Positions 19,407-48,090 of a stretch of DNA of 64,000 nucleotides are shown here, one piece after another. The position numbers and the translations under genes were made by a program. Each line of letters opens with the position of its first letter. Within the stretch, counting starts at the first letter, position 1. The notes beneath the pieces are model-generated. The model searched no databases and was not told the DNA's origin. It saw only the letters and a list, made by a program, of their open reading frames with translations. Source of the DNA: Bythopirellula sp. (lineage in GTDB: Bacteria; Planctomycetota; Planctomycetia; Pirellulales; Lacipirellulaceae); assembly GCA_028285205.1 (NCBI GenBank), contig JANQQA010000298.1, positions 1 through 64,000 of the forward strand. The letters run 5' to 3'.

Positions 19407-19497
19407 CGTCAGTCCTTTCGAGTTCGGTTCGGCACAGGCAGCTACCCATCAGTGGGACACACTCCCGAACAAGGAGTTCACACCCTCGTCGGCCTAC

Positions 19498-19650
19498 GGA
19501 CTTTTGCCGCTTTTTGCGTTTTCGCACGGTTCCCGCAAACGCATTTTTTAACGCAAAAGTCCTCCGTTTTGCAGCCGCTCAAATTCGCAAGTGTCTTCCA
19601 AGTAGGGACTTCCCGAACCATTGCCTGGCAAAAACAAACCACTTTTGCCA
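19498..19650. repeat. Copy A of a structured non-coding repeat (GGACTTTTGC...GCAAAAGTCC + GGCAAAA-loop-TTTTGCC)
   Basis: 10-bp inverted repeat 19498-19507/19553-19562 and hairpin GGCAAAAACAAACCACTTTTGCC; matches the organisation of 47422-47573. Confidence 0.55.
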
Positions 19651-19788
19651 TTTGCGGTTTTTGGCAACGGCCAACGGGGCCACCTCTCCTGCGTGAGGGA
19701 GGGCAGGGGAGTGGTCGCTACCAATCTAATCGATCTGCGGCGTCGATTCAGCAACGATTTTTGGCCGCGCTGGTTGACACCTATATTG

Positions 19789-19819
19789 CACCACGGAGTC
19801 ACGGAGGGCACGGAGAAGT
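19789..19819. repeat. CACGGAG-type dispersed repeat
   Basis: CACCACGGAGTCACGGAGGGCACGGAGAAG; inverted counterpart CCTCCGTGTTCCCCGTGACTCCGTGGT at 20125-20151. Confidence 0.7.
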
Positions 19820-19937
19820 GGTTCTGTGAGTGAGGAACACTGATCCGTGCTGAATCGACGCGATGCTGCAAACACCGGGCTCCCTCTCCCCAGCAGCGCT
19901 GCCTACTGCCAACAGTAAGGTACTTTGCGCGGCGCGT

Positions 19938-47189: not shown

Positions 47190-47421
47190 AGTGGTCGTTG
47201 ATCGGGGGGTGGGTAGGTGGGGGACTCGGTTTCAGGCTCCGCCCGGGAGGTCGTGACCAGGGCGAGCATTGCCGACTATTGTAAACTCCGCGGTATTCCA
47301 GGCAACTGGCTATAAACAGGCGGATTTGTCAGTGTTGACGGCGTATCCGAGCCAGTTTCGACGTCGCTGAAGCTGCAGAGCCTCCGCTCACTCCGTGTGT
47401 CGGGAATGGCCTGCCTCGTGC

Positions 47422-47573
47422 CGACTTTTGCTGAGTATTGCGGCCTGGGTTGTACTCTGAAAACACACTTTTAAACTCAAAAGTCGACCTTTTTTCGGCG
47501 TCAAGTTTTCGCAGGACCCCGCTACCAAGGCGTTTGCGAAATTCGGCTCGTGCAAAAACAACCGACTTTTGCA
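47422..47573. repeat. Copy B of a structured non-coding repeat (CGACTTTTG...CAAAAGTCG + TGCAAAA-loop-TTTTGCA)
   Basis: Inverted repeat 47422-47430/47478-47486 and hairpin TGCAAAAACAACCGACTTTTGCA; same organisation as 19498-19650. Confidence 0.55.
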
Positions 47574-48090
47574 TTTTCGACCCGCATCACTCCATTGAAG
47601 TTCGCCGTTAGCGTGCCGAGGGTTTTCGTCCTCGCTACACAGCGTTCGGTCTGCCAATCCAAGTGCGGCGCTGCTGTAGCGAACACCTATTCTACCAGAC
47701 CGAGTGGCCCAATTTCAGGAACAAAGTTTGGCGAGTCGCGACGGTGCAACTCGGCAAAGACTACGACGCGGATCGAAATTCGCAGCCAGCAGTTCTTGGT
47801 AGCGGAGTTCCAATACCTGCGGGTTCTGATTGAAACGGAACCTTGTAGCCCTCTATCCTTTGAATTGAAACTTAGGCGCCGTATCGGTTGTATTCGGTTT
47901 GACCATAAGGACACCACGGATTGGCACCTCGGTCAGATCACGCATATCCTAAGGCCGATTTTCGGTAGCTTCGATCGCAGTTCGAAGAAAAATATCCGAT
48001 AAATCTTCACCTTCCTGTCAAGATCTACGGCATTTCGGCGAAAGTCAGTCGACGCGACCCCGATCCAACCTGTGACAGAGGAACGTAACC

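Follow-up and report, generated by a model that had tools for sequence, protein, structure and literature searches.

Probable REPIN-like satellites of terminase-small-subunit-like genes in a Bythopirellula genome

The window analysed here (64 kb of contig C102, from a 7.9-Mb draft genome in 373 contigs, G000) contains two sites, copies A and B, at which similar short words recur in the same order outside genes. What kind of element do these sites represent, and does it belong to a larger population? Copy A comprises GGACTTTTGC at 19498-19507, a 45-nt spacer, GCAAAAGTCC at 19553-19562 and, further right, GGCAAAA-ACAAACCAC-TTTTGCC at 19627-19649. Copy B comprises CGACTTTTG from 47422, CAAAAGTCG to 47486 and TGCAAAA-ACAACCGAC-TTTTGCA at 47551-47573. 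The sequence-only reading that first pointed to them gave these sequences and coordinates correctly to within one base.

Copies, words and promoter module of the array

That reading had described a non-coding element in two copies. The element is indeed non-coding and repeated, but it is not limited to A and B: about 25 intergenic copies of an approximately 165-bp array of short words, GACTTTTGC / GCAAAAGTC, exist in the source genome (family 1). The pattern GACTTTTGN{20,50}CAAAAGTC occurs at 7 places genome-wide and at none for the reversed control. R1, a sequence-only model of the word array built from these 7 copies (A and B included), retrieves 23 near-full-length copies from the same genome (E <= 1.1e-8), among which 16 had not been used for training, besides a few weaker ones. 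The search of relatives, which the sequence-only reading had proposed together with that of the genome itself, likewise yielded further copies, with 23-37 R1-related matches in each of the congeners G002, G008 and G012 and 17 in G033 of the same family. An origin by chance or artefact is ruled out by the reversed-pattern control and the matches outside the training set. Exact pattern scans of GTDB contigs and IMG/VR, sets in which the source genome is possibly not represented, gave matches scattered over unrelated taxa at a level near estimated chance, and Rfam 15 has 0 matches above gathering threshold in the window.

The array, about 160 bp long, has a fixed layout: S1 and S2 in tandem, S3 in reverse, S4, S5 in reverse, and S6. 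In plus-strand coordinates, copy A has S1 (GACTTTTGC) at 19499-19507, S2 (CTTTTTGC, tandem to S1) at 19510-19517, S3 (GCAAAAGTC) at 19553-19561, S4 (TTTTGC) at 19567-19572, S5 (GCAAAA) at 19628-19633 and S6 (the TTTTGC core of ACTTTTGC) at 19643-19648. The corresponding words of copy B, also on the plus strand, are S1 (GACTTTTGC) at 47423-47431, a degenerate S2 (TATTGC) at 47436-47441, S3 (CAAAAGTC) at 47478-47485, a degenerate S4 (TTTTTTC) at 47490-47496, S5 (GCAAAA) at 47552-47557 and S6 (the TTTTGC core of GACTTTTGC) at 47567-47572. An apparent spacer difference of 10 nt between copies arises because the better match of the tandem pair S1/S2 varies.

The word is the conserved feature of family 1 copies. 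Mean pairwise identity among 24 copies of the source genome is 85% in words, 42% in spacers and 26-27% in flanks, the expectation from composition being 25%. Words are also lineage-specific: GCAAAAGTC in the source genome, TCGCAAAA in G012, TTGGCAAAACC in G002, GGGACAAAA in G008 and ATGCAATAATCG in G033. GGA loops of the CsrA type, present in many copies of the source genome, were dismissed as a candidate feature, not being conserved in other genomes.

All copies in the source genome are intergenic, and each either has a contig to itself or is more than 10 kb from the next. The distance to the neighbouring gene is usually short on the left (often <150 nt) and longer on the right (mostly 200-500 nt or more), with flanking genes in every orientation and neither orientation nor distance consistent. 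Assignment of the elements to 5' or 3' UTRs is ruled out by these orientations. Since array length differs by 1-2 nt between copies, the array is not protein-coding in these loci either. Near-identical copies with unrelated flanks occur in G008 and indicate recent spread. The left end of many copies in G002, G008 and G012 is abutted by a CCCC-loop-GGGG hairpin followed by TTTTG, which could terminate transcription of the opposing gene.

A second block, GGTGGCCAAAAATCGTTGCTGAAATTGGCC...GTAAAATG, is conserved in the gap to the right of the array on the minus strand, is the same in G002 and G012, and looks like a promoter. In copy A this promoter-like module, CGGCCAAAAATCGTTGCTGAATC...GATTAGATTGG, spans 19715-19771 on the minus strand and matches R2, a model of the promoter block trained on a set that also includes A and B (E=9.9e-8); its consensus is also found in G002 and G012 copies. 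In copy B the module, CGCCAAACTTTGTTCCTGAAATTGGGCCAC...GGTAGAAT, spans 47682-47737 on the minus strand (R2 match, E=2.8e-5). The whole unit, from promoter module to last word and read right to left, extends over 19497-19771 in copy A (R1 match 19497-19657, E=4.9e-30) and 47420-47737 in copy B (R1 match 47420-47578, E=8.0e-30), both on the minus strand. It is about twice as long as the sequence-only reading had drawn it, and in minus-strand order it runs from the conserved, putative promoter module, sometimes through a boxA, to the word array. A boxA-like motif (GYTCTTTGA) lies within 70 nt past the -10 in 15 of 51 loci, where 0.26 would be expected, with 0-1 occurrences in later scanning windows; A and B have none.

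Three observations on neighbouring DNA may be added. In several G002 copies (L303, L308, L310), promoter and array are separated by an inserted second repeat, whose ends resemble GTAACNGTTCACG / CGTGAACGGTTAC. At positions 19790-19820 of the window lies CACGGAGTCACGGAGGGCACGGAG, a repeated motif type also present in intergenic DNA of several relatives, e.g. G008 and G002. Genes of the window carry Planc_extracel, a planctomycete-specific signal domain.

TerS-like genes carrying the words

The promoter block is far from restricted to family 1: 105 places in the source genome match R2 at E < 1, many more than the R1 family has. We read 20 promoter sites, 19 of them lacking an R1 array and the remaining one on contig C35. 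Most lead into arrays of the same layout built from other words, and at least three word families besides family 1 were found at the sampled sites. The family 2 word, TTTTCGGACAC, has 35 exact matches in the source genome against 3 for the reversed control, the family 3 words, TTTTGAAAGGT/ACCTTTCAAAAC, 56 against 1, and the weak family 4 word, GAGTTTTGCTTGCGC, 16 against 4. In seven relatives, the family 2 word occurs 0-3 times and the family 3 word 0-1 times.

At three promoter sites, on contigs C35 (261 aa), C220 (231 aa) and C150 (249 aa), a gene follows. The 3' ends of these genes carry words of families 1, 2 and 3, respectively. A fourth homologue, on C269, is followed by the family-4 word, a weaker link than the other three. 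Judged by their sequences, these four word families each have one gene, less firmly so for the fourth.

The 3' end of the C35 gene is an R1 copy outside the training set (L018, E=1e-22). Its array overlaps the last ~95 bases of the gene and runs past the stop, S6-S4 lying in the coding end and S3-S1 after the stop codon. The closest homologue of the gene in G002 (59% identity) carries five occurrences of the G002 word TTGGCAAAAC about its stop codon, where R1 has an independent match; with respect to these words, the stop codon is placed as in C35. (The homologue in G012 is cut by a contig end.) A rough calculation puts at ~0.1% the probability of finding any of 25 R1 copies no farther than 300 bp from a particular gene in 7.9 Mb. 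Some similarity to the 31 C-terminal residues encoded by the C35 gene persists in one non-coding copy, on C64 (E=3e-4, small database). The C35 gene itself, with its imperfect words, gave a negative result in a test for repeated 8-mers. TerS-like genes of many relatives (G001, G005, G008 C70, G011) lack repeated 3' words, and for the G008 word no carrier gene was found; the rule of one gene per family is therefore not universal.

The partner proteins are terminase-small-subunit-like (TerS-like) helix-turn-helix (HTH) proteins of ~160-260 aa. The terminase small subunit profile phrog_4102 matches 9 of 9 aligned homologues (best 5.4e-20), and Pfam Sf6_terminase exceeds its cut-off in one of the scanned proteins (2e-6), along with several HTH families; no recognisable catalytic domain appeared in the Pfam scan. 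The word-bearing genes vary in the residues of the recognition helix (CSVDTIRRE, CSRSTVYKE, CSYVTVYRE and CSVWTVARE; CSHSTICRE in G002). That these differences fall where a change of word should show is suggestive only.

The sequence-only reading had connected A and B with no protein, yet they appear to be non-coding relatives of a protein gene. We consider it probable that both are non-coding, REPIN-like satellites of a single-gene TerS-like element, with the cognate protein as the probable binder of the words. Their family would have its full coding member in the C35 locus, with its promoter, its gene for the 261-aa HTH protein and its 3' word array. As the satellites share both ends of this gene and lack its middle, they are most simply regarded as internally shortened relatives, which would have lost the coding body and kept the promoter module and the 3' word array. 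The promoter module is common to the satellites of three genomes and to the TerS-like genes, and may well be active. As a relative of TerS, the protein may form oligomers and could bind several words of one array simultaneously. Its interaction with the words would keep them intact and drive spread, directly or with another enzyme. Spread itself would occur by copying at the DNA level, as REPINs are thought to do, with the protein presumably taking part and another enzyme performing strand transfer.

At the level of sequence, copy number, dispersion, the common promoter, word conservation as against spacer decay, and the link of gene and word, found also in G002, are established. No target-site duplication was seen by eye in copies with flanks, the right boundary is not sharp and no empty site was found. 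We know of no mobilising enzyme for these elements. With ~58% divergence, the spacers differ more than young mobile DNA would be expected to, which agrees with loci that have long been resident and are maintained.

Base pairing and the RNA alternative

Compensatory base-pair changes had been put forward by the sequence-only reading as a sign of selection for pairing. The larger set of copies speaks against this. Of 24 copies, 10 have a standard outer pair in stem 1 (shuffled mean 6.4, P 0.05) and 5 have one in stem 2 (shuffled mean 3.8, P 0.27), values near the shuffled ones. RNAalifold found 0 compensated pairs in 7 copies. In a set of 58 copies drawn from three genomes, local pairing gives 32 cells with changes on both sides, where shuffled data give 32.8. 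The local stems were rejected, their covariation not rising above shuffles. The idea of a hairpin survives in another form: when the same words are paired in a nested manner, S6 with S3 and S5 with S4 in one hairpin, the 58 copies give 78 cells against 41, and 0 of 500 shuffles score as high.

In the source genome alone, neither local nor nested pairing exceeds shuffles, so the evidence for selection is word conservation and not compensatory change. The nested covariation is thus one between genomes, each of which has its own word. It would be equally expected if a DNA-binding protein had changed its preferred word, and it is therefore not proof of RNA folding.

These data bear on the strongest alternative, namely that the loci are non-coding RNA genes maintained by the host. 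Each locus would then produce an RNA of ~300-450 nt from its own promoter, shielded by boxA antitermination and folded into the nested hairpin, acting in trans, possibly through binding to the TerS-like protein or to its mRNA, whose 3' end is the same sequence. The conserved promoter, the boxA-like motif in 15 of 51 loci, the nested covariation across three genomes and the retention of words next to decayed spacers all agree with such RNAs. On the other hand, A and B are devoid of boxA, the promoter is the gene's own and would be carried by satellites through descent, pairing within one genome is no better than shuffled, and ~100 loci for one RNA class would be extraordinary. We consider RNA genes possible, though unlikely.

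Other alternatives and related systems

Could the arrays be operators of a regulon, or chromosome-organising sites, with the HTH proteins serving as transcription factors or nucleoid proteins? The HTH proteins, the multi-word arrays and the intergenic location would suit such a role, but orientation and distance to genes are inconsistent. Moreover, a fixed array of ~160 bp with an attached promoter at more than 100 places implies copying of one ancestor, not convergent operators, which leaves this explanation very unlikely.

A slimmer prospect still is that the arrays are pac-like packaging-start sites, ~100 chromosomal positions to which TerS-like paralogues would direct a packaging motor, in the manner of a gene-transfer agent. 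The proteins are relatives of TerS, and arrays of words would suit a ring-forming DNA binder. Candidate motors exist as well: more distant TerS-like paralogues adjoin TerL (terminase large subunit), with pairs in G008, G009, G010 and G012, and in G006 (L470, G006:C1:6208000-6226000) a GNAT-like gene, a TerS-like gene, TerL and a lambda-type portal gene lie together with host genes on both sides. The TerL of this cluster matches phrog_38 (1.5e-75), related loci are L371, L357, L360, L372 and L379, and the cluster looks like a domesticated packaging module. Against packaging stand the lack of capsid genes in the stretch examined and the separation of word-bearing TerS-like genes from TerL, no TerL-like frame having been seen beside them. 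Sequence-specific sites would also be unexpected under generalised packaging.

A broader conjecture, which we hold to be quite unlikely, is that of an entire class of dispersed elements in bacteria. Orphan TerS-like proteins, several per genome and with diverged recognition helices, would each command dozens of private chromosomal word arrays that are also transcribed, possibly steering DNA packaging or transfer by the conserved TerL-portal cluster.

Ordinary REP/REPIN elements moved by the RAYT (Y1) transposase of the genome would follow the same overall logic of dispersed inverted words forming hairpins, and Y1 genes are present in 17 of 17 genomes tested, but this explanation is hardly credible, as none of 8 Y1 loci examined has words at its ends (the nearest words being at least 850 nt away) and Y1 genes are just as common in genomes with few or no detected elements. 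Y1/RAYT was accordingly rejected as the partner gene. In G008, two different Y1 genes (L475, L476) each precede an element of like orientation by ~850 nt, which is probably a coincidence.

The satellites of TerS-like genes nevertheless have their nearest counterpart in REPINs and RAYTs, the classic example of bacterial repeats that have a gene of their own. In that system, where REPIN spread has been proposed to depend on RAYTs (PMC3116915), as in ours, extragenic inverted words with predicted hairpins are dispersed over the genome, several families per genome each stand beside one dedicated gene, and the words co-vary with the gene lineage. The partner in our case is a TerS-like HTH protein, with TerS/HTH profile matches only, and not a Y1 HUH transposase. 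Our elements differ further by carrying a promoter, sometimes a boxA, and six or more words each, which lie partly inside the coding end of the gene. No tetranucleotide tag of the GTAG type beside the palindrome is conserved in the 24-copy consensus.

Other known systems resemble the elements in part. Like MITEs, they are short, non-coding and multi-copy and keep the ends of a coding element. Unlike MITEs, they have no terminal inverted repeats, one end being the promoter module and the other the word array, and the protein of the coding element with which both ends are shared is no recognised transposase. Of the suggestion that A and B belong to an undescribed structured repeat, MITE or RNA family, what stands is a multi-copy, apparently undescribed repeat with hairpin potential, MITE-like in being non-coding and dispersed; the ends are not those of a classical MITE, and Rfam offers no match. 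Integron attC sites share the imperfect palindrome, the one long nested hairpin and a sequence common within a genome and different between genomes. The elements, however, occur as single copies kilobases apart and not in cassette arrays, and have their own promoter; the attC core motif was not found consistently by eye. The gene family at their source resembles phage TerS (phrog_4102, Pfam Sf6_terminase), from which it departs in consisting of orphan genes without TerL, several per genome, whose C-terminal tails hold the words in their DNA.

In the open-licence literature searched, we found no paper on TerS and planctomycetes beyond one incidental mention, and none on planctomycete intergenic repeats with non-coding RNA. 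A logic of the REPIN/RAYT type combined with this partner, a promoter with boxA and a multi-word array is, as far as that literature goes, apparently undescribed. If our explanation is true, the elements would be a second, independently built case of a repeat population with its gene, formed around a protein of virus-packaging descent and with several gene-word pairs per genome. Four paralogues, four words and variable recognition-helix residues would offer a ready test of protein-DNA co-evolution. The elements would also account for a large share of the intergenic repeats of the lineage, and tie these to a conserved chromosomal terminase-portal cluster.

TerS-like orphan genes occur in other genera of the family too, with up to 10 per genome (G034, G064, G028, G016). 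In G016, G032, G066 and G018, some of these genes have repeated inverted words at their 3' end.
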